From assembly GCF_031458235.1 (NCBI RefSeq), contig NZ_JAVDYB010000001.1, positions 2,873,001-2,937,000 on the forward strand: a stretch of 64,000 nucleotides of DNA, written 5' to 3'. The notes below the pieces were generated by a model, which saw only the letters and a list, made by a program, of their open reading frames with translations, did no database searches and was not told where the DNA came from. Source of the DNA: Catenuloplanes atrovinosus. Lineage in GTDB: Bacteria; Actinomycetota; Actinomycetes; Mycobacteriales; Micromonosporaceae. This document shows positions 19,080 through 37,218 of the stretch, one piece after another; position 1 is the first letter of the stretch; every line of letters begins with the position of its first letter. The position numbers and the translations under genes were made by a program.

Positions 19080-19096
19080 ACGTCGAAGAGGGTGGA

Positions 19097-21927: not shown

Positions 21928-22979
21928 AGGCCACGACGACGGCGGATCCGGGCACGCGCCCGGCCGCTACCAGGGACGGCGGCGACGTGCTGCGCCGCTG
22001 GTGGAGCAGCGAGGGCAACGAGTTCGCCGGGCGCAACCTCGCGCTGATCGGCGTGCTCGTGGTGCTGGTCGCGCTGGGCGTGCTGACCCGGCCGGACCTC
22101 TACGGCGACCCGGAGTGGGTGCGCAACAACATCTTCACCATCCTCCAGCAGGCGTCCGCGATCGGCGTGGTCACGGTCGGCATGACCTTCGTGATCATCG
22201 GCGGCGGCATCGACCTGTCGGTCGGCGCGATCATGGCACTGGCCGGTGTCTGGGCCACCACGGTCGCCACCCAGAGCTACGGCGCGGGCGGCATGATCTT
22301 CACGGCGATCGCGGTCGGCGTCGGCACCGGCGTGGTCAACGGGCTGCTCATCTCGTACGGCCGGCTGGTGCCGTTCATCGCCACGCTGGCCATGATGGTC
22401 GCGGCCCGCGGCCTGGCCGCCTCGATCTCCGGCAAGCAGACGCAGATCTCGCAGAACGCCACGATCAACGGCATCGCGTCGACCGAGGTGCTCGGCGTAC
22501 CGCTGCTGGTGATCATCCTTGCCGTGGTGGTCGCGGCCGGCTGGGTGCTGCTCAACCGCACCACGTTCGGCCGGCGCACGGTCGCGGTCGGCGGCAACCC
22601 GGAGGCGGCCCGGCTCGCCGGCATCAACGTCCGGTGGCACACGCTGCTGCTCTACGCGCTGTCCGGCCTCTGCTGCGGCATCGGCGCGCTGATGCTGACC
22701 GCGCAGGCGAACTCCGCGCAGGCGGCCATGGGCAACCTGTACGAGCTGGACGCGATCGCCGCGGCGATCATCGGTGGCACGCTGCTCTCCGGCGGCCGCG
22801 GCACCATCGTCGGCGCCCTCTTCGGGGTGCTGGTGTTCTCCACGATCACGAACCTGTTCGCGATCAACAACCTCTCCACCGAGTCGCAGAACATGATCAA
22901 GGGCGGCATCATCGTGGCCGCCGTGCTGATCCAGCAGTTCCGCTTCGGCTCGCTGACCCGACTGTTCTCCCGCGGCTGA
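21924..22979 (+). CDS. Sugar ABC importer permease (RbsC-like)
   Basis: 351 residues, hydrophobic throughout with about eight to ten membrane helices. The RbsC mark [21 protein letters not shown] is at residues ~90-110, and the coupling region [26 protein letters not shown] near residue 215. The C-terminal part contains [24 protein letters not shown], typical of this family. It forms the membrane channel for the RbsA-like ATPase. The ATG overlaps the ATPase stop (ATGA), so translation is coupled. An intercistronic hairpin separates it from the binding-protein gene. Confidence 0.92.
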
Positions 22980-22999
22980 CGTCGACGAGCACATTGGCG

Positions 23000-23019
23000 G
23001 CCGTCGATGTTGCGACGGC
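23000..23019 (+). terminator. Small intercistronic hairpin before the binding-protein gene
   Basis: GCCGTCG pairs with CGACGGC around a 6 nt loop (ATGTTG). It lies in the 83 nt gap between permease and binding-protein genes. It may protect or separately process the binding-protein message, which is usually needed in excess. No T-run is present, so full termination is unlikely. Confidence 0.45.
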
Positions 23020-23062
23020 GGCCGGGCACCGCACATTCTGAATCCACGAGAGCGAGGACGAC

Positions 23063-24109
23063 ATGATGAAGGACGCCTCCCGCCGCCGGCTGCTGTTCGG
23101 CGGCGCCGCGATCGGCGCGGGCACGCTGCTGGCGGCCTGCACCAGCAACGAGCAGACCCCGAACACCGCGCAGACCCGCGGCCCGGACGGGGCGAACCCG
23201 AACGCGTCCCCCGGCAAGGCCGTCACCATCGGCTTCTCCGCGCCGGCCGCGGACCACGGCTGGATGGCCGCGATCACCAACAACGCGAAGGCGCAGGCCG
23301 GCGCGTACGGCGACGTGACCTTCACCAGCGTGGAGGCGGGCGCGGACGCGGCCGCCCAGCGCGCCGCGCTGGACACGCTCATCTCGCAGAAGCCGGACGC
23401 GATCGTCATGCTGCCGCACGACGGCAAGGAGCTGACCGCGTCCGGGATCAAGGCCATGCAGGCCGGCATCCCGGTGATCAACCTGGACCGCGCGTTCACC
23501 CAGGCGCTCGCGTACCGCGTGATGATCAAGGGTGACAACTACGGCATGGGCGTGTCGGCCGGCAACTACGTGGTCGCGCAGATGAAGGCGAAGGGCGTGA
23601 CCAGCCCGATCATCGGCGAGATCGCCGGCATCGACTCGCTGGAGCTGACCCAGGAGCGCTCGCAGGGCTTCAAGGACGCGCTCGCCGCGGCCGGCTTCAC
23701 GGTCGCGAACCGGCGCGCCGCCGAGTTCACGGTCGACTCCGGCCAGCGCGAGGCCACCAACCTGCTCCAGGCGCTGCCGCGGATGGACGCGCTCTGGAAC
23801 CACGACGACGACCAGGGCGTGGGCGTGCTCGCCGCGGTCCAGCAGGCGAACCGCAACGAGTTCATCATGGTCGGCGGCGCCGGCTCGAAGGCCGCGATCG
23901 AGGCGATCCAGGCCGACAACAGCGTGCTGAAGGCCACGGTCACGTACAGCCCGTCGATGGCCTCGTCGGCGATCTCGCTGGCCCGGCTGGTCGCGCAGGG
24001 CCGCGGCCTGTCCGACCTGGTGGAGCTGGCCGTGCCGAAGGACATCACGCTGGCGTCCGAAACGATCACCAAGGAGAACGCGGCGAACTACCTTCAGCTT
24101 GGGTTCTGA
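23063..24109 (+). CDS. Sugar ABC importer substrate-binding lipoprotein (RbsB-like)
   Basis: 348 residues. The signal has a twin-arginine-like RRRLLFGG and a lipobox LLAAC with Cys26, so it may be Tat-exported before lipidation. The mature part is a type I periplasmic binding protein: TIGFSAPAADHGWMAAITNNAK, DTLISQKPDAIVMLPHDG, PVINLDRAF, VVAQMKAKG and ALWNHDDDQGVGVL. The last is the second-lobe ligand-contact strand. The Trp and Asp residues fit a pyranose or cyclitol ligand, which is not identified. Two ATG codons are adjacent at the start, after GAGCGAGGA. Confidence 0.9.
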   Translation: MMKDASRRRLLFGGAAIGAGTLLAACTSNEQTPNTAQTRGPDGANPNASPGKAVTIGFSAPAADHGWMAAITNNAKAQAGAYGDVTFTSVEAGADAAAQRAALDTLISQKPDAIVMLPHDGKELTASGIKAMQAGIPVINLDRAFTQALAYRVMIKGDNYGMGVSAGNYVVAQMKAKGVTSPIIGEIAGIDSLELTQERSQGFKDALAAAGFTVANRRAAEFTVDSGQREATNLLQALPRMDALWNHDDDQGVGVLAAVQQANRNEFIMVGGAGSKAAIEAIQADNSVLKATVTYSPSMASSAISLARLVAQGRGLSDLVELAVPKDITLASETITKENAANYLQLGF

Positions 24110-24140
24110 CACACACTTCTTCACAGACAGGGAGCTATCC

Positions 24141-25307
24141 GTGGGCGAGCTGCGCATCGGGATGGTCGGCTACGCGTTCATGGGCGAGGCACACTCGCAG
24201 GCGTGGCGGACCGTGAACCGCGTCTACGACCTGCCCGTACGCGCCCGCATGTCGCTGATCGCGGGGCGGGACAAGGCGAACGTGGCCGCGGCCGCGGACC
24301 GGCTCGGGTGGGACGAGCACACCACCGACTGGCGTGACCTGATCAACCGGGACGACATCGACCTGGTCGACATCTGCACGCCGGGCGACTCGCACGCGGA
24401 GATCGCGTGCGCCGCGCTCGCCGCCGGCAAGCACGTACTCTGCGAGAAGCCCCTGGCCAACACGGTCGAGGAGGCCCGGGCGATGGTCGCCGCGGCGGAC
24501 GCCGCCCGGGCACAGGGCGTGCGCGCCATGTGCGGGTTCACCTACCGCCGCGTACCGGCGGTCACGTTCATGCGGCGGCTGATCGCGGAGGGCCGGCTCG
24601 GCGAGCTGCGCCACGTCCGCGCGGTCTACCTCCAGGACTGGATCACCGACCCGGAGTTCCCGCTGGTCTGGCGCCTGCAGAAGGACAAGGCCGGGTCGGG
24701 AGCGCTGGGTGACATCGGCGCGCACATCATCGACATGACGCAGTTCGTCACCGGCCAGGCCATCACCGGCCTGTCCGGCCTGACCGAGACGTTCGTGACC
24801 GAACGGCCGCTGCCGTCCGGTGACGGCGCGGCCCTCGGCGCGGCGACCGCGGGTGCATCGAGCAAGGGCCCGGTCACCGTGGACGACGCGGCGCTGTTCG
24901 TGGCCCGGCTGTCCGGCGGGGCGGTCGCCACGTTCGAGGCCACCCGGATGGCGACCGGCCGCAAGAACGGGCTGCGCATCGAGGTGAACGGCGCGAAGGG
25001 CTCGCTGGCGTTCGACCTGGAACGACTCAACGAGCTGGAGTACTACGACGGCACGCTGCCGGGCACGGAGCTGGGATTCCGGCGGATCCTGGTCACCGAG
25101 CCCGACCACCCGTACCTGTCCGCGTGGTGGCCGACCGGGCACCTGATCGGGTACGAGCACGGATTCACGCACCAGGCCCGCGACCTCCTCGAGGCGATCG
25201 GCACCGGCACCGACCCGGAGCCGTCGTTCGCCGACGCGCTCGGCGTGCAGCTCGTGCTGGACGCGGTCGAGCGGTCGGCCGGCTCGGGAGCGTGGGTCCA
25301 GGTCTAG
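24141..25307 (+). CDS. Gfo/Idh/MocA-family sugar/cyclitol dehydrogenase
   Basis: 388 residues. The N-terminal Rossmann fold starts RIGMVGYAFMGEAHSQAW and carries the family's catalytic motif EKPLA (CEKPLANT near residue 100). The C-terminal alpha/beta domain contains GSGALGDIGAHIIDMTQF, whose Asp and His are the usual catalytic pair. Members oxidise or reduce hydroxyls of sugars and inositols with NAD(P). It lies 31 nt after the binding protein and before the ThuA/sugar-dehydrogenase gene, suggesting it oxidises the imported sugar. The GTG at 24141 follows ACAGGGAGC. Confidence 0.9.
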   Translation: MGELRIGMVGYAFMGEAHSQAWRTVNRVYDLPVRARMSLIAGRDKANVAAAADRLGWDEHTTDWRDLINRDDIDLVDICTPGDSHAEIACAALAAGKHVLCEKPLANTVEEARAMVAAADAARAQGVRAMCGFTYRRVPAVTFMRRLIAEGRLGELRHVRAVYLQDWITDPEFPLVWRLQKDKAGSGALGDIGAHIIDMTQFVTGQAITGLSGLTETFVTERPLPSGDGAALGAATAGASSKGPVTVDDAALFVARLSGGAVATFEATRMATGRKNGLRIEVNGAKGSLAFDLERLNELEYYDGTLPGTELGFRRILVTEPDHPYLSAWWPTGHLIGYEHGFTHQARDLLEAIGTGTDPEPSFADALGVQLVLDAVERSAGSGAWVQV

Positions 25308-25313
25308 CAGGCT

Positions 25314-25385
25314 CCTCGGGCCGCGCCGCGAGGGGCCGGCACGCGGTTGCGCCCCGCGTGACGGCGAGAAGGGCGCGGCCCGAGG
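25314..25385 (+). terminator. Branched stem structure after the sugar operon
   Basis: A 14 bp perfect stem is formed by CCTCGGGCCGCGCC (25314-25327) and its complement at 25372-25385, followed by CTTTC. The 44 nt between contains an inner 7 bp hairpin, CACGCGG (25340-25346) with CCGCGTG (25354-25360). It begins 7 nt after the dehydrogenase stop and most likely ends that transcript. A structured leader element for the next gene is the alternative. Confidence 0.6.
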
Positions 25386-25517
25386 CTTTCATGGCACCAC
25401 AGCAGGACCTTGGCGGACGTGGCACCGCGCCAGGGGTGAGGCACAACCCCCGTGCCCGTGGCGGGGCGTTCCGGGCCGGCACCGGCCCGAAGCGCCTCAC
25501 TGACCCCGGAGGAACAC

Positions 25518-28500
25518 ATGACAAGATCCGTCCGTCGGTGGCTGGCGGCCGCGGCAGGCCTGGCCATCGCCCTACCGCTCGCGGCACCGCCCGCGTCCGC
25601 CGCACCACCGCCCCACCCCGACACCCTGATCACCACGGAGAACGGGCCGGCGTCCCTGCGGTCCGACGCGCGTAAGCCCGGCTCGTACCGGGTGCTGGCC
25701 TTCACCAAGACGGCCGGTGAGCGCCGCGCGTCCATCCCGGCCGCCGTCGCCGCGCTGAAGCTGCTGGGCATCGCGAACGGCTTCCGGGTGGACGAGACCG
25801 CGAACGCGGACGCGTTCACCGCGGCCAACCTGTCCCGCTACCGGGCCGTGGTCTTCCTGAACACCACCGGCGACGTGCTGAACGACACGCAGCAGTCCGC
25901 GTTCGAGCAGTACTTCACGAACGGCGGCGGCTACCTCGGCGTGCACGCGGCCGCGGAGACCGAGCCGGACTGGGAGTTCTACCGCGACCTGGTCGGCACG
26001 TCCGTGGAGGCCGCGCTGCCGGCCGAGGACGCCACCATCGACGTGGCGGACCGCGCCCACCCGGCCACCGAGCGGCTCGCCCGGAAGGTCACGCTCTCCG
26101 AGGAGTGGTACAACTTCGAGTCCAGCGTGCGCGGCACCGCGCACGTGCTGGCCACCCTGGACGAGTCCACGGTCACCGGCGGGACCATGGGGCACGACCA
26201 CCCGATCTCCTGGTGCCGCGACTACCAGGGCGGGCGCACGTTCTACACCGGACTGGGCCACTCCACCCGCTCCTACCTGGACGGCTCGTTCCGGCGGCAC
26301 CTGCTCGGCGGCCTGCAGTGGGCGGCCGGCGTGGTCGAGGGTGACTGCGGCGCCACGGTCGTCGGCAACTACGAGAAGGTCGTGCTCAACGATGAGCCGG
26401 GCGAGCCGATGTCGCTGGCCGTGCTGCCGGACGGCCGGGTGCTGCACAACACCCGCAACGGCCAGATCCGGCTGTACGACCCGGCGACCGGCGCCAGCCC
26501 GGTGATCAACACGCTGGAGGTGTACCAGCACGACGAGGACGGCCTGCAGTCGGTCGCGCTCGACCCGCAGTTCGCCACGAACCGGTGGGTGTACATCTAC
26601 TACGCGCCACGGCTGGACACGCCCACCACGGACGCGCCGGTGACCAGCAACGACCCGTCGGTGTGGGAGCCGTTCAAGGGCTACAACCAGCTGTCCCGGG
26701 TGAAGTTCGTGGAGACGCCCACGCCGCACCTGGACATGAGCACGGAGCAACAGATCCTGCGCGTGGACGTGGACCGCGGCGTCTGCTGCCACGTCGGCGG
26801 TGAGATCAAGTTCGACGGTGCCGGGCTGCTCTACCTGGTCACCGGCGACGACACCAACGCGGGCGGCTCGGACGGGTACACGCCGATCAACGAGTCGCCG
26901 ACGCAGGGGCCCGGCTACGACGCGCAGCGCTCCTCCGGCAACACCAACGACCTGCGCGGCAAGGTGCTGCGGGTCCGGGTGGAGGACGACGGCACGTACA
27001 CCGTGCCGAGCGGCAACCTGTTCGACGAGAGCCGGGACACGGAGGGCAAGACCCGTCCGGAGATCTTCCTGATGGGCCTGCGCAACCCGTTCCGGTTCGA
27101 CGTGGACGCGCGCGGCTACGTCTACGTGGGCGACTACTCGCCGGACTCGCAGGTGCCGTCCGCCACCCGCGGGCCGGAGGGGACCGGGCGGTGGATCGCC
27201 ACCAACGAGGCCGGCAACTACGGCTGGCCGTACTGCTACTCGCCGTCGCTGCCTTACATCGACTACGACTTCGCCACCAAGCAGTCGAAGGGCGCGTTCA
27301 ACTGCGCGGCGGCGGTCAACGACTCGCCGCGCAACACCGGCCTGACCACGCTGCCGCCGGTGGCGCAGCCGGACTTCTGGTACACGTTCCAGGCGCGCAC
27401 GCCGTGCCCGGGCTCGTACCTGTCGAATCCGCCGACCACGTGCGACTTCAAGTGGCCGGTGATCGGCACCGGTGGCGTCGGGCCGATGGGCGGCCCGATC
27501 TACACCTACGACGCGCAGTCCACGTCCGAGGGCAAGTTCCCGGAGTACTACGACGACGCCGTGGTCTTCGGCGAGTTCACCCGCGACAAGATCTTCATGA
27601 TGCGGACGGACGGCAACGGGAACCTGACCGGCGTCGAGCAGTTCCTGCCCGGGTTCGTCTTCGACAACCCGATGGACATGGAGTTCGGCCCGGACGGCAG
27701 CCTCTACCTGCTCGAGTACGGCGACGGCTTCTTCCGGCCCAACCCGGACGCGGCGCTGTCCGTGATCCGCTACGCCAAGGGCACCCGGGCGCCGGTGGCC
27801 GCGCTCGAGGCCACGCCGGACAACGGGCCCGCGCCGCTGACCGTGCAGTTCTCCTCCGAGGGTACGTACGACCCGGATCCGGGCGAGTCCATCTCGTACG
27901 CGTGGGACTTCACCTCCGACGGCACGGTCGACTCCGCGGACCCGAACCCCACGTTCACGTACACGGCCAACGGCGTCTACACCGCGCGGCTCACGGTGAC
28001 CGACTCCAGCGGCAAGACCGCGCAGCTCACCCACCAGATCGTGGTCGGCAACACGCGGCCCACGGTCACGGTCACCTCGCCGATCTCCGGAACCTTCTTC
28101 AACTGGGGCGACACGGTTCCCTGGACCGTGACCGTCACCGACCCGGAGGACGGCCCGATCGACTGTTCCCGCGTCACGGTCTCGTTCGTGCTCGGCCACG
28201 ACACGCACGGCCACGGCATGAGCGACGCCAACGGCTGCTCCGGATCGTTCGTCTCCCCGGCGGACGGCGCGGACCACGCCGGCGGCTACCTGTACGGCGC
28301 GGTCAGCGCGAAGTACACGGACCTGGGCGCGAACGGGCAGCCACCGCTGGAGGCGGTCAACCAGGTGGTGCTGCAGACCTGGCGGCAGCAGGCCGAGTTC
28401 GCCCAGCAGCAGCTCGGCGTGACGGTGGCGTCCACCAACGACACCGGCGGCGGCAACCACCTGACCGGGTTCGATCCGAACGAGTACATCGCGTTCGACC

Positions 28501-28790
28501 CGATCAACCTGGGCGGGGTCAGCACGGTCACACTCCGGTACGCGGGCGGCACCGCCGCCACCGCCGGGCAGCCGCGCGCCACCGTGACGCTGCGGCTGGA
28601 CGCGCCGGACGGCCCGATCGTCGGCAGCGCCACGCTCGCCGCGACCGCGTCCAACACCACCTGGGCGTCGCAGACCGTCCCGGTCTCCGCGGCACCCGGC
28701 TCACATCGGCTCTACCTGGTCGCCGGCGGCGTCGAGGGCGGGCCCACCACCGGCCTGTTCAACCTGAACTGGGCCGAGTTCGCTCCATAG
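25518..28790 (+). CDS. Secreted ThuA - sugar dehydrogenase - PKD - carbohydrate-binding protein
   Basis: 1090 residues. A Sec signal peptide ends PPASAA near residue 29. A ThuA-like domain covers residues ~55-275 (VLAFTKTAGERRAS, GGGYLGVHAAAETEPDWEFY, GHDHPISWCRDYQGGRTFYTGLGH). A six-bladed soluble glucose/sorbosone dehydrogenase-type propeller covers ~290-750 (LAVLPDGRVLHNTRNGQI, RGKVLRVR, EIFLMGLRNPFRFDVD, GNYGWPYC). A PKD domain follows at ~757-845 (YDPDPGESISYAWDFTSDGT). A beta-sandwich segment and a CBM6-like module (~945-1090) end the protein. The design fits an extracellular polysaccharide-bound oxidoreductase whose cofactor (PQQ or none) is not proven. ATG after GGAGGA. Confidence 0.88.
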   Translation: MTRSVRRWLAAAAGLAIALPLAAPPASAAPPPHPDTLITTENGPASLRSDARKPGSYRVLAFTKTAGERRASIPAAVAALKLLGIANGFRVDETANADAFTAANLSRYRAVVFLNTTGDVLNDTQQSAFEQYFTNGGGYLGVHAAAETEPDWEFYRDLVGTSVEAALPAEDATIDVADRAHPATERLARKVTLSEEWYNFESSVRGTAHVLATLDESTVTGGTMGHDHPISWCRDYQGGRTFYTGLGHSTRSYLDGSFRRHLLGGLQWAAGVVEGDCGATVVGNYEKVVLNDEPGEPMSLAVLPDGRVLHNTRNGQIRLYDPATGASPVINTLEVYQHDEDGLQSVALDPQFATNRWVYIYYAPRLDTPTTDAPVTSNDPSVWEPFKGYNQLSRVKFVETPTPHLDMSTEQQILRVDVDRGVCCHVGGEIKFDGAGLLYLVTGDDTNAGGSDGYTPINESPTQGPGYDAQRSSGNTNDLRGKVLRVRVEDDGTYTVPSGNLFDESRDTEGKTRPEIFLMGLRNPFRFDVDARGYVYVGDYSPDSQVPSATRGPEGTGRWIATNEAGNYGWPYCYSPSLPYIDYDFATKQSKGAFNCAAAVNDSPRNTGLTTLPPVAQPDFWYTFQARTPCPGSYLSNPPTTCDFKWPVIGTGGVGPMGGPIYTYDAQSTSEGKFPEYYDDAVVFGEFTRDKIFMMRTDGNGNLTGVEQFLPGFVFDNPMDMEFGPDGSLYLLEYGDGFFRPNPDAALSVIRYAKGTRAPVAALEATPDNGPAPLTVQFSSEGTYDPDPGESISYAWDFTSDGTVDSADPNPTFTYTANGVYTARLTVTDSSGKTAQLTHQIVVGNTRPTVTVTSPISGTFFNWGDTVPWTVTVTDPEDGPIDCSRVTVSFVLGHDTHGHGMSDANGCSGSFVSPADGADHAGGYLYGAVSAKYTDLGANGQPPLEAVNQVVLQTWRQQAEFAQQQLGVTVASTNDTGGGNHLTGFDPNEYIAFDPINLGGVSTVTLRYAGGTAATAGQPRATVTLRLDAPDGPIVGSATLAATASNTTWASQTVPVSAAPGSHRLYLVAGGVEGGPTTGLFNLNWAEFAP

Positions 28791-28981: not shown

Positions 28982-30106
28982 GTGTCCTTCGTCCCCGCCC
29001 GCACCGGCGTCTGGCTCATGGGTGCCAGAGGCTCCGTCGCCACCACCGCCGTCACCGGCGCGCTCGCGCTCCGCGCCGGCCTGGCCGGCACCGACGGCTG
29101 CGTCACCGAGCTTCCCGCGCTCGCCCGCCCCTGGCTCCCGCCCATCCCGTCGCTGGTCTTCGGCGGGCACGACATCGCCGACACGCCGCTGCCGAAGAAG
29201 GCCGAGGCGCTCGGCGCCGCCGGCGTGCTCCCCGCGCACCTCGCGTCCGCGCTCACCGCGGAGCTGTCCGAGGTGGACGCGGCCGTGCTGCCGCTGCCGC
29301 CGTCCGTGGACGGGATCGCGCGCGACCTCGTGGCCTTCCGGGAGGCCCACGGCCTCGACCGGGTGGTCGTGATCAACGTGGCGAGCACGGAGCCGGTACC
29401 CTCGGACGATCTGCTGAACGCGGACGCCGAGACGCTGCCGCCCAGCTCCCGCGCCGCGTGGGCCGCGTTCCTCGCCGGGTGCGCCTACGTCGACTTCACG
29501 CCGTCCACCGGCGCCCGGCTGCCCGCGCTGGACGCGCTCGCCCGGGAGCACGGCGTCCCCTACGCCGGCAACGACGGCAAGACCGGCGAGACGCTGGTCA
29601 AGTCCGTGCTCGCGCCCATGTTCGCCGCCCGCAACCTGCGCGTGCGCAGCTGGTCCGGGCTCAACCTGCTCGGCGGCGGCGACGGCGCCCGGCTCGCCGA
29701 CCCGGCCGCGAACGCCGCCAAGACCGCCAGCAAGCAGCGCGTCCTCGCGGACACGCTCGGCTACCAGCCGCAGGGCACCACCCGCATCGACTACGTCGAG
29801 ACGCTCGGCGACTTCAAGGCCGCCTGGGACCTGATCAGCTTCTCCGGTTTCCTCGGCACCACCATGCGGATGGAGTTCACCTGGCACGGCTGCGACTCCG
29901 CGCTGGCCGCGCCGCTGATCCTCGACCTGGCCCGGCTGACGGCCGCGGCCCACGCGGCCGGCCGTTCCGGCCCGCTCCCGGAACTCGCGTTCTTCTTCAA
30001 GGACCCGATCGGTACGGCGCCGGCCGCGCTGGCCGACCAGTGGTCGCTGCTGACCTCCTTCGTCGAGGACCTCTCCGGCTCCTTCCCCGGCGCGGGAGAG
30101 GTCTGA
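28982..30106 (+). CDS. Inositol-3-phosphate synthase-like protein of an Ebo-type cluster
   Basis: 374 residues. The NAD-binding N-terminus GVWLMGARGSVATTAVTG and the central GNDGKTGETLVKSVLAPMF with downstream SWSGLNLLGGGDG and SKQRVLADTLGY identify the myo-inositol-1-phosphate synthase family. Family members convert glucose 6-phosphate to inositol 3-phosphate with an internal NAD redox cycle. It is the first gene of an eight-gene coupled operon. In cyanobacterial Ebo clusters the equivalent place is held by the dehydroquinate-synthase-like EboD, so a cyclitol-forming step seems conserved by function, not family (inference). The GTG start follows GGAGG; its stop overlaps the next ATG (TGATG). 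Confidence 0.88.
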   Translation: MSFVPARTGVWLMGARGSVATTAVTGALALRAGLAGTDGCVTELPALARPWLPPIPSLVFGGHDIADTPLPKKAEALGAAGVLPAHLASALTAELSEVDAAVLPLPPSVDGIARDLVAFREAHGLDRVVVINVASTEPVPSDDLLNADAETLPPSSRAAWAAFLAGCAYVDFTPSTGARLPALDALAREHGVPYAGNDGKTGETLVKSVLAPMFAARNLRVRSWSGLNLLGGGDGARLADPAANAAKTASKQRVLADTLGYQPQGTTRIDYVETLGDFKAAWDLISFSGFLGTTMRMEFTWHGCDSALAAPLILDLARLTAAAHAAGRSGPLPELAFFFKDPIGTAPAALADQWSLLTSFVEDLSGSFPGAGEV

Positions 30107-31050
30107 TGGCGCGCCTCGCCGACCTGATCGACCTGGTACGCGCGCCGGCGGCCCTCTCCGTCCCGGGCGATCTGATCGCCGGTGCGAGCGCCGCGGGGGC
30201 GCTCACCCCGGCGACCGGGGCACTGGCCGGGGCCTCCGTCTGTCTCTACTGGGCCGGCATGGCCGCCAACGACTGGGCCGACCGCGACCTCGACGCGGTG
30301 GAGCGTCCCGAGCGGCCCATTCCGTCCGGGCGGGTACGCCCGGCCACCGCGGCCGGGCTGGCCGCGGGGCTCACCGCGGCCGGCCTCGGGATCGCCGCGC
30401 TGGGCGGGGGCCGGCGCTCGCTCGGCGTCGCGGTGCCGCTGGCGGCCGCGATCTGGGCCTACGACCTGCGCGCCAAGAACACGGCGGCCGGCCCGGCGGT
30501 GATGGCGGCCTGCCGCGCGCTGAACGTCCTGCTCGGCGCGACCACCGGGCGGACGCTGACGGGCCCGCTCCGGCGGGCGCTGCCGACGGCCGCGGCCGTG
30601 GCGGCGCACACCTACACGGTCACCGCGCTCTCCCGGCGCGAGGTCTCCGGCGCGACCCCCACGCTGCCCGCCGCCACGCTCGCGGCGACGGGCGCGCTCG
30701 GCGCGGCGATAGCCGCCGGGCCCGCACCGCGTGCCGTCGGTGCCGGGTCCTCGCCGGTGGCCGGCAGCGTCACGCCGGCGCCCCGGAAGGCGGGCGGATC
30801 GCCGTCCCGGGCGGCCGTGGTGGGCGCGCTGGCCGGGCAGTACCTCGCCGGATACGGTGCCGCGCAGGCCCGGGCGGTGGCGAGTCCCACCCCGGCCGCG
30901 GTCCGGGCGGCGGTCGGAGCCGGGATCACGGGACTGCCGGCGCTGCAGGGGGCACTCACCGCCCGCGCCGGGAGTCCGGTCGCCGGTCTGCTGGTCGCCG
31001 CCGCGGCGCCGCTGGCCCGCATGCTCGCGCGGAAGGTGTCGCCGACATGA
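30106..31050 (+). CDS. UbiA-family prenyltransferase (EboC counterpart)
   Basis: 314 residues with seven to nine hydrophobic helices. The first Asp-rich motif is NDWADRDLDAVERPERPIPSGR near residues 48-69, which binds the Mg-diphosphate of the prenyl donor. The second conserved region is YDLRAKNTAAGPAVMAACRALN near residue 125. This matches the actinobacterial SCO3242-type prenyltransferases that sit next to EboA genes. It should attach a polyprenyl chain to a small acceptor, probably a product of the synthase encoded just before it. The ATG overlaps the synthase stop. The polyprenyl synthetase at the operon's end is the likely donor source. Confidence 0.88.
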   Translation: MARLADLIDLVRAPAALSVPGDLIAGASAAGALTPATGALAGASVCLYWAGMAANDWADRDLDAVERPERPIPSGRVRPATAAGLAAGLTAAGLGIAALGGGRRSLGVAVPLAAAIWAYDLRAKNTAAGPAVMAACRALNVLLGATTGRTLTGPLRRALPTAAAVAAHTYTVTALSRREVSGATPTLPAATLAATGALGAAIAAGPAPRAVGAGSSPVAGSVTPAPRKAGGSPSRAAVVGALAGQYLAGYGAAQARAVASPTPAAVRAAVGAGITGLPALQGALTARAGSPVAGLLVAAAAPLARMLARKVSPT

Positions 31051-32102
31051 GCGCGCCGGCACCGCGGTTCGGCTACGGCACCAACGGGTTCGCGAACCAT
31101 CGGCTGGCGGACGCGCTGCGGGTGATCGCGGATCTCGGCTACCAGGGTGTGGCGCTGACGCTGGACCACGACCACCTCGATCCGTACGCGCCGGATCTCG
31201 CGGCCCGGGTGGGGGAGACCGCGGACCTGCTGCGCGACCTCGGGCTCGCGGTGGTGATCGAGACGGGAGCGCGCTACCTGCTCGATCCGAGGCGCAAGCA
31301 CGCGCCGACGCTGCTGCACGACGATCGCGCGCTGCGGATCGACTTCCTCCGCCGGGCGGTGGCGGTCGGTGCCGACCTGGGCGCGGAGGCGGTCTCGTTC
31401 TGGGCCGGGGTGCGGCCGCCCGGCGTACCCCCGGAGCTGGCCTGGCAGCGGCTGGTGAACGGGTGCGCCGAGGCGGGGGAGGCAGCGGCGGCGGCCGGGA
31501 TTCCGCTCGGGTTCGAGCCGGAGCCGGGCATGCTGGTCGAGGACATCGCCGGCTGGCGGCGGCTGCGGGACGCCCTCGGCGCGCCGGGCTGGTTCGGCAT
31601 GACGCTCGACATCGGGCACTGCCGGTGCCTGGAGCCCCTGGACGTGGCCGACTGCGTCACCGAGGTGGCGGAACACCTGGTCAACGTGCAGATCGACGAC
31701 ATGCGCCGGGGCGTGCACGAGCACCTCGAGTTCGGCACCGGCGAGATCGACTTCCCGCCGGTGCTGCGCGCGCTCGCGGACGGCGGCTACCGCGGCCTCG
31801 TTGCGGTCGAGCTGCCCCGCCACTCCCACGCCGCCCCCACGATCGCCGCCGATTCGCTCACCTTCCTGCGCTCCGCCTGGACGACCGCGACCGACCCGAA
31901 TGCACCTAGCTTCCTAGGAAGCGGTAGGCGGGGTGCGGGCGAGCACCGCGAATCCGCAGCCGGCGCCGCGGCGATCGCGGGCAGTGCGGTGACGGCCGGC
32001 GCGGGCACCCACGGTGCGGCCGGCGCGGGCACCGACGGTGCGGCCGGTGCGGGCACCGACGGTGCGGATGTGGACGGCGCGAGGGACAGGAGGACGGCAT
32101 GA
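31047..32102 (+). CDS. TIM-barrel sugar phosphate isomerase/epimerase-like protein with repeat tail
   Basis: 351 residues. Residues 1-285 form an AP-endonuclease-2-like TIM barrel: GYGTNGFANHRL, LGYQGVALTLDHDHLD, VVIETGARYLLDP, LGFEPEPGMLVED, GMTLDIGHCR, VNVQIDDMRRGVHEHLEFG and VAVELPRHSHAAP. Glu, Asp and His residues at the strand ends would hold a metal. The last ~65 residues are low-complexity Gly/Ala/Thr, partly coded by a 24 bp tandem repeat, and are not part of the fold. It probably isomerises or cleaves the cyclitol or sugar head group in the Ebo-like pathway. Both ends overlap neighbours by ATGA. Confidence 0.85.
   Translation: MSAPAPRFGYGTNGFANHRLADALRVIADLGYQGVALTLDHDHLDPYAPDLAARVGETADLLRDLGLAVVIETGARYLLDPRRKHAPTLLHDDRALRIDFLRRAVAVGADLGAEAVSFWAGVRPPGVPPELAWQRLVNGCAEAGEAAAAAGIPLGFEPEPGMLVEDIAGWRRLRDALGAPGWFGMTLDIGHCRCLEPLDVADCVTEVAEHLVNVQIDDMRRGVHEHLEFGTGEIDFPPVLRALADGGYRGLVAVELPRHSHAAPTIAADSLTFLRSAWTTATDPNAPSFLGSGRRGAGEHRESAAGAAAIAGSAVTAGAGTHGAAGAGTDGAAGAGTDGADVDGARDRRTA
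31909..31922. repeat. 14 bp perfect palindrome inside the TIM-barrel gene
   Basis: GCTTCCTAGGAAGC is a perfect palindrome lying exactly where the conserved barrel ends and the low-complexity tail begins. CTAG-rich sequence is otherwise rare in this DNA. It could mark an insertion or recombination point, or be chance. Confidence 0.35.
32001..32072 (+). repeat. Three copies of a 24 bp in-frame repeat
   Basis: The unit GCGGGCACC(C/G)ACGGTGCGGC-CGG(C/T) recurs at 32001, 32025 and 32049, the last copy diverging at its end. It codes AGTHGAAG, AGTDGAAG, AGTDGADV in the tail of the TIM-barrel protein. Being a multiple of 3, it can expand or shrink without a frameshift. Confidence 0.7.
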
Positions 32103-32749
32103 CGATCACTCCGCGGGAGATCACCCTGGAGAAGCTGCGGGTCGCGCTGCGGGACGTACCCGGGCGGGAATGGCTGGACGACGCGGAACGCGCGGTCACG
32201 AGCGACCCCGCCGCGATCGCACGCCTCTTCCCGGCCGCGGGCCGGCGCACCGGCCGGGAGCCGCTGCCCGGCGTGCCCGGCTGGAGCGTGGACGCCGCCG
32301 CCCGCGCGGTGCTGCTGGCCGCGCTGCTGGCCGCCCCGGCCGGCCCGGCCGAGATCGCGGAGCTGTACCGCTACGGCGACAGCCGGGAGAAGCAGGCGAT
32401 CCTCGCGGCCTGCTCGCTGCTCCCGGACGCCCCCGACGAGCAGGTGATCCCGCTGCTGCGGGACGCGCTGCGCACCAACGACGCCCGGCTGGTCGCGGCC
32501 GCGCTGGGCCCGGCGGCGGATCGGCTGGACGACGCGACGTGGCGGCAGGGCGTGCTGAAGTGCGTGTTCATGGGTGTGCCGCTGACGGTCGTGCACGGGC
32601 TGCGCGACCGGGCGGACGACGGCCTGGCCGACATGCTGGCCGCGCTCGCGGAGGAGCGCGCGGCCGCGGGGCGTGACTTCCCGGCGGACGCGGCGGACCT
32701 GCTCCGCGAGGTGCGGCGGGCCGGGACGACGAGCGAGAGGAGACGGTGA
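32099..32749 (+). CDS. eboA: EboA-domain protein
   Basis: 216 residues, mostly alpha-helical. It carries the EboA family sequence: YRYGDSREKQAILAACSLL, then LRDALRTNDARLVAAALGP, then WRQGVLKCVFMGVPLTVVHGL, and a basic tail. The molecular role is unknown; in cyanobacteria the ebo genes are needed to move a scytonemin precursor to the periplasm. The HEAT-like helical pairs suggest a scaffold or adaptor (inference). ATGA overlaps the isomerase stop, and its own stop overlaps the EboB start. Confidence 0.88.
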   Translation: MTITPREITLEKLRVALRDVPGREWLDDAERAVTSDPAAIARLFPAAGRRTGREPLPGVPGWSVDAAARAVLLAALLAAPAGPAEIAELYRYGDSREKQAILAACSLLPDAPDEQVIPLLRDALRTNDARLVAAALGPAADRLDDATWRQGVLKCVFMGVPLTVVHGLRDRADDGLADMLAALAEERAAAGRDFPADAADLLREVRRAGTTSERRR

Positions 32750-33600
32750 TGCGGATCTTCGACCCGCACATTCACATGACGTCGCGGACCACGGACGACT
32801 ACGCGGCGATGGCCGCGGCCGGCGTGGTCGCGGTGGTGGAGCCGGCGTTCTGGCTGGGGCAGCCGCGGACCGGGCCGGGCTCGTTCGCGGACTACTTCGA
32901 CTCGCTGGTCGGGTGGGAGCCGTACCGTGCCTCGCAGTTCGGGGTGCGGCACCACGCGACGATCGCGCTGAACCCCAAGGAGGCCAACGATCCCCGCTGC
33001 CGGCCGGTGCTCGACCTGGTGCCGCGCTACCTGGCGAAGGACGGCGTGGTCGCGGTGGGGGAGATCGGCTACGACTCGATGACCCCGGAGGAGGACGACG
33101 CGTTCGCCCGGCAGCTCGCCATGGCCGTCGACTTCGGGCTGCCCGCGCTGGTGCACACGCCGCACCGGGACAAGGCGCGCGGCACGCTGCGCAGCCTGGA
33201 CGTGGTCGCGGAGTCCGGCCTCGCACCGGAGCGGGTGGTGATCGACCACCTGAACGAGGTGACGGTCAAGGTGGTCAAGGACGCCGGATGCTGGGCCGGG
33301 TTCTCCATCTACCCGGACACGAAGATGTCGCCGCCGCGGATGGTGGAGATCCTCCGGGAGTACGGGCTGGACCGCATGCTGGTCAACAGCGCCGCGGACT
33401 GGGGGAAGTCGGACCCGCTGCTGACCGTGCGCACCGCGGAGGCGATGCTGGCGGCCGGGTTCACCGACGACGACGTGGACCGCGTGCTGTGGCGGAACCC
33501 GGCCGAGTTCTACGGCCAGTCCGGCCGCCTCGACCTGTCGGACCTCACCCCCTCCGACGGTACGTACCAGGGCAGCTCGATCCTGCGGGGAGGCTCCTGA
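32749..33600 (+). CDS. eboB: TatD-like metal-dependent hydrolase (EboB)
   Basis: 283 residues of an amidohydrolase-type TIM barrel. The metal ligands appear in IFDPHIHM (strand 1), VAVGEIGYDS (strand 4), LPALVHTPHRDK (strand 5), VVIDHLNE (strand 6) and LVNSAADWG (strand 8). This is the TatD pattern, but the substrate of EboB is not a known DNA end. It may hydrolyse an ester or lactone intermediate of the pathway. The start ATG follows GAGAGGAG by 7 nt and overlaps the eboA stop by one base; the GTG immediately before it (32746) is an alternative. Confidence 0.88.
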   Translation: MRIFDPHIHMTSRTTDDYAAMAAAGVVAVVEPAFWLGQPRTGPGSFADYFDSLVGWEPYRASQFGVRHHATIALNPKEANDPRCRPVLDLVPRYLAKDGVVAVGEIGYDSMTPEEDDAFARQLAMAVDFGLPALVHTPHRDKARGTLRSLDVVAESGLAPERVVIDHLNEVTVKVVKDAGCWAGFSIYPDTKMSPPRMVEILREYGLDRMLVNSAADWGKSDPLLTVRTAEAMLAAGFTDDDVDRVLWRNPAEFYGQSGRLDLSDLTPSDGTYQGSSILRGGS

Positions 33601-33601
33601 C

Positions 33602-34759
33602 ATGCGGCTGCGGCACGCCGACGGCACCACCGTGCACCTCGGATACTGCACGAACGTCCACCCGGCCGAGGACCTGCCCGGCATCGTCGCGCAGTTCGAC
33701 AGCTACGCCGTGCCGATCCGGGAGCGCCTCGGCGTGCCGGTGCTGGGCCTGGGCCTGTGGCTCGCCGCTCCGGTGGCGGCGGGCCTGGCCGCGGACCGGG
33801 CGGCCGTGCACCGGCTGCGGTCCGAGCTGGCCGCGCGCGGCCTCGAGGTGGTGACCCTCAACGGCTTCCCCTACCAGGCGTTCCAGGCCCCGGTGGTCAA
33901 GCACGCGGTCTATCATCCGGACTGGTCCCGGCCGGACCGGCTGCGGTACACGATGGACCTGGCCGAGGTGCTGGCCCAGCTGCTGCCGGACGACGCCCGC
34001 CGCGGCTCCGTCTCGACGCTGCCGCTGGCCTGGCGCACGCCGTGGGACGAGGACACGCGCCGGCGCTGCCGCGACAACCTGGACGCGCTCGCCGGCGGCC
34101 TGGCCGCGCTGGAACGCCGCTCCGGCCGTACCGTGCGGGTGGCGTTCGAGCCCGAGCCCGGCTGCGTGGTCGAGTCGACCGCGCAGGCCGTCACGCACCT
34201 GCGGGAGGTGGACACCGAGCGGCTCGGCGTCTGCCTCGACCTCGCACACCTGGCGTGCGCCTGGGAGGAGCCGCGCGAGGCGGTCGCCCGGCTGGACGCG
34301 GCGGGCGTGCCGATCGTGAAGGTGCAGGTGTCGGCCGCGCTGGAGAGCGCCGATCCGCGCGCGGACGAGGCGGTGCTGCGCGGCTACGTCGAGCCGCGCT
34401 TCCTGCACCAGACCCGGTCCCGGGCCGGCCGCGCCACCGACGACCTCGACGAGGCGCTGTCCACGGTGGACGACGGCCCGTGGCGCGTGCACTACCACGT
34501 GCCGCTGCACGCGGACCCGATCCCGCCGCTGCGCGCCACCACCGGCGTGCTGGCCGACGCGCTGACCGTGCTGGCCGGCGGCGACACCGCCCGCTGCGAC
34601 CACCTGGACGTGGAGACGTACACCTGGGGCGTGCTGCCGCCGGAGCGGCGGCCGTCCACACCGGACGAGCTGGCGGGCGGCATCGCGGCCGAGCTGGCGT
34701 ACGCGCGGGACCTGCTCACGACGCTCGGACTGGCACACACCGTGGAGGCGAACCGATGA
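33602..34759 (+). CDS. eboE: EboE, TIM-barrel metabolite traffic protein
   Basis: 385 residues. It starts with the family mark VHLGYCTNVHPAEDLPGI and continues as a xylose-isomerase-like barrel: VLGLGLWLAA, VVTLNGFPYQAFQAPVVKHAVYHPDW, VAFEPEPGCVVES, GVCLDLAHLACAWEEP, VKVQVSAALES, and HYHVPLHAD. The His, Glu and Asp residues suggest a metal-dependent isomerase or eliminase. In cyanobacterial and Pseudomonas ebo clusters this is the most diagnostic member. It starts 1 nt after the eboB stop with GGGGAGG before it, and overlaps the next gene by ATGA. Confidence 0.9.
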   Translation: MRLRHADGTTVHLGYCTNVHPAEDLPGIVAQFDSYAVPIRERLGVPVLGLGLWLAAPVAAGLAADRAAVHRLRSELAARGLEVVTLNGFPYQAFQAPVVKHAVYHPDWSRPDRLRYTMDLAEVLAQLLPDDARRGSVSTLPLAWRTPWDEDTRRRCRDNLDALAGGLAALERRSGRTVRVAFEPEPGCVVESTAQAVTHLREVDTERLGVCLDLAHLACAWEEPREAVARLDAAGVPIVKVQVSAALESADPRADEAVLRGYVEPRFLHQTRSRAGRATDDLDEALSTVDDGPWRVHYHVPLHADPIPPLRATTGVLADALTVLAGGDTARCDHLDVETYTWGVLPPERRPSTPDELAGGIAAELAYARDLLTTLGLAHTVEANR

Positions 34760-36150
34760 CCACCCCGCTGCTGGTGCTGGACGTGGTGGGCCTGACGCCC
34801 CGCCTGCTGGCGCACATGCCGCGACTGTCCGCGCTCGGCTTCCAGGCCGAGCTCGGCACCGTGCTGCCGGCCGTCACCTGCTCCGCGCAGTCGACGTTCC
34901 TGACCGGCCGGCTGCCGTCCGAGCACGGCATCGTCGGCAACGGCTGGTACTTCCGCGACCTCGGCGAGGTCTTCCTGTGGCGGCAGCACAACCGGCTGGT
35001 CCAGGGCGAGAAGCTGTGGGACGCCGCGCGCGCGGCGTCGCCCGGTTACACGGTCGCGAACGTGTGCTGGTGGTACGCGATGGGCGCGGACGTCGACTGG
35101 ACCGTGACGCCGCGGCCGATCTACTACTCGGACGGCCGCAAGGAGCCGGACTGCTACACGTACCCGCCGGAGCTGCACGACGAGCTGACCGGCGCGCTCG
35201 GCACGTTCCCGCTGTTCACCTACTGGGGCCCGAACGCCGGGATCGCCTCCTCGGCCTGGATCTGCCGCGCCGCCGAGCAGATCATGACCACCCACCGGCC
35301 GGACCTGACGCTGGTCTACGTGCCGCACCTCGACTACGACCTGCAGCGCTTCGGCCCGTCCTCGCCCCAGGCCGCGGCCGCGGCCCGCGCGATGGACGAC
35401 CTGCTGGCGCCGCTGCTGGACGCGGCCGCCGCGCGGAACACAACCGTGGTGGCGCTGTCCGAGTACGGCATCACGGACGCGCACCGCCCGGTGGACGTCA
35501 ACCGGCTGCTGCGCCGCGAGGGACTCCTGCACGTTTACACGCAGGACGGCATGGAATACCTGGACCCGTGGACCTCCGCCGCGTTCGCCGTCGCCGACCA
35601 CCAGATCGCGCACGTCTACGTCCGCGACCCGGCCGACCGTGAGCGGGTCCGGGCGCTGTGCGCCGCGCTGCCCGGCGTCGACGTGGTGCTGGACGACGCC
35701 GGCAAGCGGGAGCACGGCCTCGACCACGAGCGCGCCGGAGACCTCGTGCTGATCGCGGACCGGGACGCCTGGTTCACCTACTACTACTGGCTGGACGACG
35801 CGCGCGCGCCCGACTTCGCCCGGCTCGTCGAGATCCACCGCAAGCCCGGGTACGACCCGGCCGAGCTGTTCTTCGACCCGGCCGCCCCGGGCGCGGCCAA
35901 GCTGCGCGCCGCCGCCGCGCTGGCCCGCAAGAAGACCGGCTTCCGGTACCTGATGAACCCGATCGGCCTGGACGCCGGCGCCCGCGCGGTCCGCGGCTCG
36001 CACGGCCGGCTCCCGGAGGACCCGCGGGACGGCCCGGTGCTGCTCTGCTCCGACCGCGCGCTGACCCGCGACCGCGTGGAGGCGGTCGAGGTGAAGGATT
36101 TGCTGTTGCGCGCGGCCGGTATCACCCATGACGCTGTGTCTATCGATTGA
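34756..36150 (+). CDS. Type I phosphodiesterase/nucleotide pyrophosphatase-family protein (EboF counterpart)
   Basis: 464 residues of the alkaline-phosphatase superfamily. The nucleophile region is TCSAQSTFLTGRLPSEHGIVGNGW near residues 38-61. Downstream metal regions are VYVPHLDYDLQRFGP near residue 195 and ALSEYGITDAHRPVDVNR near residue 235, with GLDHERAGDLVLIAD near residue 320. The SDHG box of ordinary members reads SEYG here. It has no signal peptide, so it acts in the cytoplasm. A role in removing a phosphate or nucleotide from the prenylated product is likely. A gap of 24 nt separates it from the polyprenyl synthetase gene. Confidence 0.85.
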   Translation: MTTPLLVLDVVGLTPRLLAHMPRLSALGFQAELGTVLPAVTCSAQSTFLTGRLPSEHGIVGNGWYFRDLGEVFLWRQHNRLVQGEKLWDAARAASPGYTVANVCWWYAMGADVDWTVTPRPIYYSDGRKEPDCYTYPPELHDELTGALGTFPLFTYWGPNAGIASSAWICRAAEQIMTTHRPDLTLVYVPHLDYDLQRFGPSSPQAAAAARAMDDLLAPLLDAAAARNTTVVALSEYGITDAHRPVDVNRLLRREGLLHVYTQDGMEYLDPWTSAAFAVADHQIAHVYVRDPADRERVRALCAALPGVDVVLDDAGKREHGLDHERAGDLVLIADRDAWFTYYYWLDDARAPDFARLVEIHRKPGYDPAELFFDPAAPGAAKLRAAAALARKKTGFRYLMNPIGLDAGARAVRGSHGRLPEDPRDGPVLLCSDRALTRDRVEAVEVKDLLLRAAGITHDAVSID

Positions 36151-36174
36151 ACACCTGACGTAGAAGGGTCGTGG

Positions 36175-37218
36175 ATGTCGGCCGACGTCGTCGCGAACGC
36201 GAGCGGGCTCCGGGAACGCTGCGAGACCGCGCTCGCGGACTGGCTGGACCGGCAGCGCCCGGACTGGCCGGACCTGGCCGTCTTCGAGACGATGCGCCGC
36301 TTCGTGCTGCACGGGGGCAAGCGGCTGCGGCCGATGTTCTGCTACTGGGGCTGGCGCGGCGCGGGCGGCGACGACGGCCCCGGGATCGTGTCCGCCGCCG
36401 CCGCGCTGGAGCTGTTCCACGCGTTCGCGCTGATCCACGACGACATCATGGACGGCAGCGACCTGCGCCGCGGCGAGCCGTCCGTGCACCGGCGGCTCGC
36501 CGACGAGCACCACCGGCGCGGCTGGCGCGGCTCGTCCGGCGCCTACGGCGCGGGCGCCGCGCTGCTCGTCGGCGACCTGCTCGCCGCGTGGGCGGACGAG
36601 CTGTTCGCCTCCGCCGACCCGCACCGCCGGGGCGCCGCGCTGTTCGCCCGCATGCGCACCGAGGTGATCGCCGGTCAGTACCTCGACCTGCGCGCCGGGG
36701 TTGGGGCCGGCTCGGTCGCGGACGCGCTCACCGTGGTCCGGATGAAGGCCGCCCGCTACACGGTCACCCGCCCGCTCCAGATCGGCGCCGCGCTGGCCGG
36801 CGCCGGCGACGAGCTGCTGACCTCCTACCGCGCGTTCGGCGACCCGCTCGGCGACGCGTTCCAGCTCCGCGACGACGTGCTCGGCGTGTTCGGCGACCCG
36901 GCCGTCACCGGCAAGCCCGCGCTCGACGACCTCCGCGAGGGCAAGCAGACCGTGATGCTGGCGCTCGCCCGCGAGCACGCCGCCCCGGACCAGGCGGCCA
37001 CCCTCGATCGCCTGGTGGGCAACCCGGCGCTGGACGAGCGGGCCGCCGCCGTGCTCCGCGAGATCATCGTGGACACCGGCGCGCTCGCCCGCACGGAACG
37101 CATGATCCGCATCCGCGCGGACGCGGCCCGCGACGCGCTCGCCGCCGCCCCCATCACGCCCGAGGCCTTCGCCGCGCTCGCCGAACTCGCCGACCAGGCC
37201 GTCCACCGTCTCTCCTGA
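36175..37218 (+). CDS. Polyprenyl diphosphate synthase (trans-isoprenyl type)
   Basis: 347 residues. The first Asp-rich motif is LIHDDIMDGSDLRRGEPS near residues 86-103, preceded by the GGKRLRP substrate loop. The second is GDAFQLRDDVLGVFGD near residue 225, with DDxxG in place of DDxxD, a common actinobacterial form. It condenses IPP with an allylic diphosphate; the residues before the first motif are HAFAL, which allow a long chain (C20 or more, tentative). Placed last in the Ebo-like operon, it probably supplies the donor for the UbiA enzyme. An ATG start follows AGAAGGG; a terminator hairpin follows the stop. Confidence 0.9.
   Translation: MSADVVANASGLRERCETALADWLDRQRPDWPDLAVFETMRRFVLHGGKRLRPMFCYWGWRGAGGDDGPGIVSAAAALELFHAFALIHDDIMDGSDLRRGEPSVHRRLADEHHRRGWRGSSGAYGAGAALLVGDLLAAWADELFASADPHRRGAALFARMRTEVIAGQYLDLRAGVGAGSVADALTVVRMKAARYTVTRPLQIGAALAGAGDELLTSYRAFGDPLGDAFQLRDDVLGVFGDPAVTGKPALDDLREGKQTVMLALAREHAAPDQAATLDRLVGNPALDERAAAVLREIIVDTGALARTERMIRIRADAARDALAAAPITPEAFAALAELADQAVHRLS

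Follow-up and report, generated by a model that had tools for sequence, protein, structure and literature searches.

What does an ebo operon make when another enzyme stands where its ring-forming enzyme is expected? The question is raised by a stretch of 64,000 nucleotides from the actinobacterium Catenuloplanes atrovinosus (positions 2,873,001 to 2,937,000 of contig NZ_JAVDYB010000001.1; hereafter the window, always at its full length), part of a genome of 8.9 Mb in one contig. Here, eight open reading frames (ORFs), all on the plus strand and spanning 28982-37218, include counterparts of the ebo genes, with a myo-inositol-phosphate synthase (MIPS) in place of the sugar-phosphate cyclase EboD. 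The ebo genes were named by Yurchenko et al., who proposed an isoprenoid-cyclitol product (PMC5133447; this and the other papers below are cited from parts of their texts). That product has been termed an unknown prenylated cyclitol (PMC6092422); ebo functions in the export of the scytonemin monomer in Nostoc and ranges from algal plastids to a Pseudomonas avoided by C. elegans (PMC6282210). We find the MIPS-type operon to be real and widespread, and the swap of ring-forming enzymes suggests that a sugar-ring alcohol is joined to an isoprenoid tail. Our preferred reading, to which we give a probability of roughly one half from sequence comparison, is that this conserved actinobacterial variant, here called MIPS-type ebo, builds a prenylated cyclitol membrane lipid.

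Gene content of the operon

The features of the operon, in window coordinates, are as follows:

28982..30106, plus strand: MIPS, archaeal-type myo-inositol-phosphate synthase in the EboD position; GTG start; PF07994 134.3 bits, PF01658 108.1 bits
30106..31050, plus strand: UbiA membrane prenyltransferase of the SCO3242 family; 1-nt overlap with MIPS (TGATG); NF045897 368.8 bits
31047..32102, plus strand: TIM1, xylose-isomerase-like TIM barrel (isomerase, epimerase or dehydratase); 4-nt overlap; PF01261 128.5 bits
32099..32749, plus strand: EboA; 4-nt overlap; EboA domain NF035938 141.6 bits
32746..33600, plus strand: EboB-like TatD-related metal-dependent hydrolase; 4-nt overlap; PF01026 44.9 bits
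33602..34759, plus strand: EboE, TIM-barrel "metabolite traffic" protein; 1-nt gap after EboB; NF035939 415.4 bits
34756..36150, plus strand: EboF-like type I phosphodiesterase/nucleotide pyrophosphatase; 4-nt overlap; PF01663 222.5 bits
36175..37218, plus strand: polyprenyl (isoprenyl diphosphate) synthase, a facultative member; 24-nt gap; PF00348 169.3 bits
37230..37256, plus strand: 12-bp hairpin directly past the last stop codon, a possible terminator without a T-run

A preliminary description of the window had recognized eight same-strand genes with short overlaps and gaps, and their coordinates and spacing agree with ours. All of the operon proteins save EboA exceed the Pfam gathering score. 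Against the curated NCBIfam cut-offs (EboA domain 50, EboA family 320, EboE 250, EboC 250, SCO3242 260, and mycothiol Ino1 638), the earlier EboA and EboE calls are upheld (141.6 versus 50 and 415.4 versus 250 bits), and the EboB-like and EboF-like genes are borne out by the TatD Pfam family (44.9 bits) and PF01663 (222.5 bits). A UbiA enzyme is likewise present as described, but it is of the SCO3242 type and falls under the EboC cut-off (121.9 versus 250 bits). The terminator that had been placed after the last gene is supported in part by a 12-bp stem past the stop codon (-31.5 kcal/mol, z -1.9, equalled by 4 of 200 shuffles), but the T-run is absent; a scan whose terminator consensus requires a T-run returned no consensus promoter or terminator at the operon.

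Spread and conserved gene order

Of 396 genomes sampled from the phylum, 18 carry an EboE that scores over the cut-off; in the family, 132 of 200 do. The phylum sample holds 19 EboE loci in its 18 genomes, 17 of them with MIPS (this one included), one with EboD (G381), and one with neither. SCO3242-type UbiA, counted with at most five candidates scored per genome, exceeds its cut-off in 17 of the 396, namely, the EboE genomes minus G381. We then compared 59 hand-picked stretches, 19 from the phylum and 40 from the family sample, double and weak copies included, with genes called by an in-house script. MIPS is carried by 48 of them (16 of 19 and 32 of 40, respectively), and 45 of these 48 keep the order MIPS-UbiA-TIM1-EboA-EboB-EboE-EboF, 37 exactly and eight with TIM1 and EboA fused; the remaining three miss one or two gene calls. 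Adjacent core genes are separated by median gaps of -4 to 0 nt. The synteny of EboA and EboE with an inositol-phosphate synthase, which the preliminary description had put forward as a check, is kept in 45 of 48 MIPS loci, and the spread of EboE together with this order places the operon far beyond chance. A decaying ebo copy is seen in L040 (G279:C21), where EboE and UbiA persist in pieces under the cut-offs, one UbiA piece has an internal stop, and MIPS is absent from the locus.

Replacement of EboD by MIPS

An EboB alignment scan across many phyla yielded 371 relatives, of which the best 80 loci were characterized for gene content by tblastn, with taxon labels assigned by hand from the record titles. 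Among these best 80 of 371, 26 have MIPS, 33 have EboD, 21 have neither, and none has both, in line with the earlier proposal that MIPS replaces EboD. The mutual exclusion of the two cyclases strengthens the inference of a cyclitol. Other genes follow the same division: TIM1 accompanies MIPS in all 26 loci, occurs in none of the 33 with EboD, and turns up in 5 of the 21 that lack both cyclases; SCO3242-type UbiA is found in 25 of the 26 MIPS loci. Of the 33 EboD loci, 29 encode a UbiA resembling EboC or archaeal enzymes, and in the other four no UbiA was found. Many of the 21 loci without either cyclase are cut contigs or from Planctomycetota, and some, such as the actinobacterial L193 and L214, have full flanks. 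An EboD hidden near the operon was considered and rejected, as the three PF01761 matches of the genome lie at 1.06, 2.63, and 7.54 Mb, versus 2.91 Mb for EboE. In an EboD-type cluster outside the 80-locus set (L107, Ketogulonicigenium), the TIM barrel beside EboB belongs to the group of TIMup, a TIM barrel encoded upstream of the Catenuloplanes operon (see below), and not to TIM1.

The ring-forming enzyme

Both the NAD-binding and the catalytic domains of the operon MIPS score above the Pfam cut-off (PF07994 and PF01658). Its closest relative in the PDB is the MIPS of Archaeoglobus fulgidus (E 8.5e-65), far ahead of the five-membered-cyclitol-phosphate synthase 6k96 (1.1e-11) and Ino1 1gr0 (1.4e-7). 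The digeranylgeranylglyceryl phosphate (DGGGP) synthase discussed below is from another archaeon, Methanocaldococcus jannaschii. Residues K247, K251, K279, K340, and N228, which presumably belong to the active site, are invariant across 20 aligned sequences, two from haloarchaea included, and K251, K340, and N228 align with the positions altered in the A. fulgidus entries 3qvw, 3qvx, and 3qw2. In a tree of 57 sequences (39 of 42 selected loci, two of them, L101 and L106, outside ebo clusters), the operon MIPS are separate from 14 of the 17 other MIPS of the sampled genomes, and this operon's enzyme stands apart from the other MIPS of its own genome. The remaining three, labeled "ino1," group among the non-actinobacterial MIPS, so neither tree label corresponds to one clade. 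That the operon enzyme is a duplicate of the mycothiol Ino1 (TIGR03450) is ruled out by its score (34.7 versus 638 bits), the ranking of PDB relatives, and its position in the tree. Streptomyces has an inositol-biosynthesis MIPS in InoA of the operon SCO3899/3900 (PMC7581861).

Three further MIPS deserve mention in their own right. In G268 (L022), the operon MIPS is the sole PF01658 match of the genome and may be its only inositol-phosphate synthase. A plasmid of Halomarina sp. BND7 (L101) encodes a MIPS near the operon type beside glycosyltransferase genes and without ebo genes. A Hymenobacter volaticus plasmid (L106:7779-14405) holds a different cluster, in which MIPS is joined by an HD-domain protein, two Gfo/Idh/MocA proteins, a YcaO-like protein, and a TIM barrel that shares 50% identity with TIM1.

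The prenyltransferase and the polyprenyl synthase

The UbiA protein exceeds the cut-off of the SCO3242 family (NF045897, 368.8 versus 260 bits). The EboC model that it misses is a strict one: the UbiA of the EboD-type cluster L107 also misses its cut-off (76.4 bits). Residues N55, D56, D59, and D63, forming the motif NDxxDxxxD, are invariant in 18 aligned sequences. In a profile search, the top solved match is DGGGP synthase (6m31, E 4.9e-13) over the first 126 positions, which accords with the earlier suggestion of a prenylated cyclitol or its phosphate in that the nearest enzyme, over this part, is one that prenylates a phosphorylated polyol. The MIPS and UbiA genes adjoin, with a median gap of -4 nt in 51 pairs.

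The polyprenyl synthase, earlier regarded as the dedicated supplier of the UbiA enzyme, is indeed operon linked, but it immediately follows EboF in only 22 of the 45 standard-order loci and so is not a core member. Phenylalanine at -5 and alanine at -4 before the first DDxxD are found in 23 of 26 aligned sequences (one differs, and in two the motif search caught another site), which, by the rule for such enzymes, suggests a chain of about C20.

TIM1, EboA, EboB, EboE, and EboF

TIM1 was listed among the eight genes of the preliminary description and left undiscussed there, though its distribution ties it to MIPS and not to EboD. The best match of its profile is MJ1311 (3wqo, E 7.7e-21), with L-ribulose-5-phosphate 3-epimerase next and further epimerases of sugars and xylose isomerases behind it. 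Nine loci (L038, L108, L127, L128, L130, L132, L142, L143, and L144) encode TIM1 and EboA as a single fused protein, and these fusions offer a lead on the working partner of EboA. Fusions of a TIM barrel with EboA in Actinobacteria are mentioned, as data not shown and without follow-up, in PMC5133447. In the window, a 24-bp tandem repeat of 3.8 copies (31976-32067) encodes a low-complexity tail of TIM1 just before EboA, and this tail could be the worn-down linker of a former fusion.

The operon EboA misses the EboA-family model NF035937 (62.5 versus 320 bits), as does the EboA of the EboD-type cluster (150.4), and a profile search found no solved relative at E values up to 1. The EboB profile best matches A. 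fulgidus AF_1765 (3guw, E 3.7e-41), with the best TatD relative at 1.9e-8; the protein shares 53-54% of its residues with a TatD family hydrolase encoded in an EboD-type cluster, and no curated EboB model is among its matches. The solved relatives of EboE are all weak. In EboF, E236-Y237-G238 replaces the D-H-G of the aligned phosphonoacetate hydrolase, in which the D and H are metal ligands; the triplet is invariant in 16 aligned sequences, one EboD-type and two haloarchaeal ones included.

Upstream neighborhood

The region 17979-28790, on the same strand, leads into the operon with the TIM barrel TIMup followed by these genes:

19103-20281, plus strand: ROK regulator (Pfam/NCBIfam)
20278-21927, plus strand: sugar ABC importer, ATPase (Pfam/NCBIfam)
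21924-22979, plus strand: sugar ABC importer, permease (Pfam/NCBIfam)
23063-24109, plus strand: sugar ABC importer, binding protein (Pfam/NCBIfam)
24141..25307, plus strand: Gfo/Idh/MocA oxidoreductase related to levoglucosan dehydrogenase; NF052479 368.4 bits, missing the cut-off of 650; PDB 4h3v, E 6.3e-165
25518..28790, plus strand: protein of 1,090 residues with ThuA, glucose/sorbosone dehydrogenase (GSDH), PKD, and CBM6 domains (Pfam); a longer ORF begins at 25452

As a guess from its domains and N-terminus, the last protein is probably secreted. Parts of this set recur beside the operon in several actinobacterial families; the importer, the Gfo protein, and ThuA/GSDH are recurrent neighbors that the preliminary description had not connected with the operon. 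We compared the 48 MIPS loci with 20 control stretches at round-number positions, chosen by hand in operon-bearing genomes. A ThuA or GSDH relative is found in 31 of the 48 and in none of the 20. The corresponding figures are 19 and 1 for the Gfo protein, 18 and 0 for the binding protein, 15 and 1 for the ATPase, and 17 and 1 for the permease; ROK and TIMup relatives occur in nine and seven MIPS loci, respectively, and in no control. Chance proximity of ThuA/GSDH was rejected on these counts and on the seven ThuA matches, probably six genes, in the 8.9 Mb of the genome; the figure of 31 is still inflated by shared ancestry, and 17 of the 48 loci have neither domain. Among the best 80 of the 371 EboB loci, a ThuA/GSDH relative of more than 34% identity lies near 17 of 26 MIPS, 3 of 33 EboD, and 1 of 21 other loci.

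In three further stretches (L137, L141, and L148), genes for ROK, the ABC importer, the substrate-binding protein (SBP), and Gfo lead into an EboE-like gene, and none is labeled as MIPS or UbiA; L148 ends just past the EboE-like gene. Relatives of EboE can thus sit in a sugar-uptake cluster.

Discussion

The evidence for a prenylated cyclitol lipid lies in the exclusion of EboD by MIPS, the likeness of this MIPS to the A. fulgidus enzyme with its invariant residues, the DGGGP-synthase-like profile of UbiA, and the adjoining MIPS and UbiA genes. To these may be added the order kept in 45 of 48 loci, the tracking of EboE genomes by SCO3242-type UbiA, the polyprenyl synthase in 22 of 45 loci, the MIPS clusters of haloarchaea, and the role of ebo in Nostoc. 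From these we infer the reactions of MIPS-type ebo, their order, the product, and its role as follows. MIPS would convert glucose 6-phosphate to inositol 3-phosphate, and this product would serve as the prenylation substrate of UbiA. Isoprenyl diphosphate would be supplied by the neighboring polyprenyl synthase, and by housekeeping enzymes in loci that lack it. UbiA would then join the isoprenyl group to a hydroxyl of the ring phosphate or a derivative of it, much as DGGGP synthase acts on glycerol phosphate, and EboF might remove or hydrolyze the phosphate. TIM1, perhaps held by EboA, along with EboE and EboB, could isomerize, dehydrate, or hydrolyze the head group. Residing in the membrane, the product may aid in bringing a metabolite to the exterior or displaying it there, in keeping with the role of ebo for the scytonemin monomer in Nostoc.

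Several observations weigh against this reading. The swap is confounded with taxonomy: among the best 80 of 371, 25 of the 26 loci with MIPS are actinobacterial, and none of the 33 with EboD is. The confounding is incomplete: G381 has EboD inside the phylum, and MIPS occurs with ebo-type partners outside it, in a deltaproteobacterial bin (L179, with MIPS, a TIM barrel, EboB, and UbiA), a Gemmatirosa plasmid (L105), and the haloarchaeal plasmids L100 and L102. A second copy in G128 (L023) is without MIPS and yet keeps UbiA, TIM1, EboA, EboB, EboE, and EboF. A relative of the polyprenyl synthase is absent from 23 of the 48 MIPS stretches. The single UbiA sequence ranks chlorophyll a synthase (1.7e-4) over DGGGP synthase (4.6e-3), both being weak matches. 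UbiA-297, which comes from an ebo cluster and is the one tested enzyme of the EboC type, takes an aromatic acceptor, farnesylating 8-hydroxyquinoline-2-carboxylic acid (PMC9235831). Finally, the sugar-uptake and sugar-oxidation genes upstream hint at a catabolic setting.

The aromatic preference of UbiA-297 gives rise to the best-surviving alternative, an unlikely one in our judgment, in which the acceptor of UbiA is an aromatic compound or one derived from a peptide, the MIPS cyclitol goes only to a separate head group or carrier, and the operon is a general aid to export. Scytonemin-monomer export via ebo in Nostoc (PMC6282210) would fit it. So would the presence of SCO3242 and SCO3243, the latter annotated as a myo-inositol phosphate synthase, in the cluster list of the calcium-dependent antibiotic (CDA) of Streptomyces coelicolor (PMC3610822); the NCBIfam family of the operon UbiA is named after the former. 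As a guess from their number alone, SCO3237-SCO3243 might be the seven core genes. The seven-gene core on a Streptomyces sp. NBC_01563 plasmid (L279, 328000-377900) points the same way and resembles the CDA listing: it lies inside a nonribosomal peptide synthetase region with an acyl carrier protein, ketosynthases, fatty-acid-type genes, MbtH, a TauD/TfdA oxygenase, and an ABC transporter. This alternative sits poorly with EboE in 132 of 200 family genomes, with a sugar-binding-protein gene near 18 of 48 MIPS loci, and with DGGGP synthase as the solved structure nearest to the UbiA profile.

The prenylated-lipid reading may also be extended, more speculatively and with rather little confidence, to a bacterial pathway, shared with haloarchaea, toward archaeal-style ether lipids with an inositol head group in place of glycerol. 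Here, a dedicated prenyl-inositol carrier would move metabolites, including Streptomyces products of the lipopeptide type, across the membrane, and the sugar dehydrogenase and importer would recycle the head group. Were it true, the cyclase swap would show a prenyl-cyclitol carrier to be the general product of ebo.

The upstream genes suggest yet another possibility, which we consider improbable: the importer, Gfo, ThuA/GSDH, and the TIM barrels might take up and oxidize a sugar or cyclitol that the ebo-like genes process, prenylation being a side branch. The recurrence of these neighbors in several families, the closeness of Gfo to the levoglucosan-dehydrogenase model, and the three ROK-ABC-SBP-Gfo-EboE-like clusters without a MIPS or UbiA label are all in its favor, but catabolism is a poor fit for a prenyltransferase of the membrane and for a prenyl synthase, and the importer genes are found in just 15 to 18 of the 48 MIPS loci. 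Least probable of all is a different cyclitol phosphate as the product of the MIPS-like enzyme, perhaps one with a five-membered ring such as forms in aristeromycin biosynthesis, so that the operon product is no inositol derivative: 6k96 is a relative, but at E 1.1e-11 it is a much weaker one than A. fulgidus MIPS at 8.5e-65, and K251, K340, and N228, the positions altered in 3qvw, 3qvx, and 3qw2, are conserved.

In comparison with the canonical eboABCDEF of eustigmatophyte plastids, Cyanobacteria, and Bacteroidota (PMC5133447 and PMC6282210), the MIPS version has in common EboA, EboB, EboE, EboF, a UbiA, and the idea of an isoprenoid cyclitol. It differs in having MIPS for EboD and an SCO3242-type UbiA for EboC, and it adds TIM1, in places fused to EboA, and, in about half of the loci, the polyprenyl synthase. 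The earlier statement that this version has no known product stands for the literature searched, but a prenylated cyclitol is not new for ebo (PMC5133447 and PMC6092422), and NCBI family names already exist for the genes. The word "inositol" is absent from the main text of PMC5133447, and we found no paper on MIPS-type ebo in the openly accessible literature, which is weak evidence of absence, as most subscription journals lay outside the search. The replacement of EboD by an unrelated ring-forming enzyme beside the same partners gives the cyclitol product independent support. The MIPS version also offers a first step that is directly assayable, from glucose 6-phosphate to inositol phosphate. 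Moreover, because the UbiA family is named after SCO3242 and both SCO3242 and SCO3243 are in the CDA list (PMC3610822), a knockout in S. coelicolor could test MIPS-type ebo.

The archaeal affinities extend beyond A. fulgidus MIPS and DGGGP synthase, the closest solved relatives of the operon MIPS and the UbiA profile. We examined three haloarchaeal records of the five among the 40 listed, the third being L101. In the other two, plasmids of Halocatena salina (L100) and Natronococcus sp. (L102), the cluster combines MIPS, UbiA, EboB, an EboF with E-Y-G, and TIM barrels; genes for ABC importers and for ThuA or pyrroloquinoline quinone (PQQ) sugar dehydrogenases lie nearby. No EboA or EboE match was found in either by tblastn at 1e-3, and the three L100 TIM barrels scanned score far under the EboE cut-off. 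Their UbiA proteins score 178 and 197 bits with EboC versus 165 and 161 bits with SCO3242, missing both cut-offs.

Two minor observations concern other neighbors. In the window, genes for an oligopeptide-type ABC transporter, followed by a penicillin-amidase-family ORF of 1,184 residues, occupy 6452-14893. On a Streptomyces camelliae plasmid, the gene immediately upstream of MIPS (L103:3221-4423) encodes a ScyD/ScyE-family protein (243 bits versus a cut-off of 80). A general partnership with ScyD/ScyE was rejected, as a search with one query over 166 stretches, 20 of them controls, found relatives in four, one from Streptomyces and three cyanobacterial.

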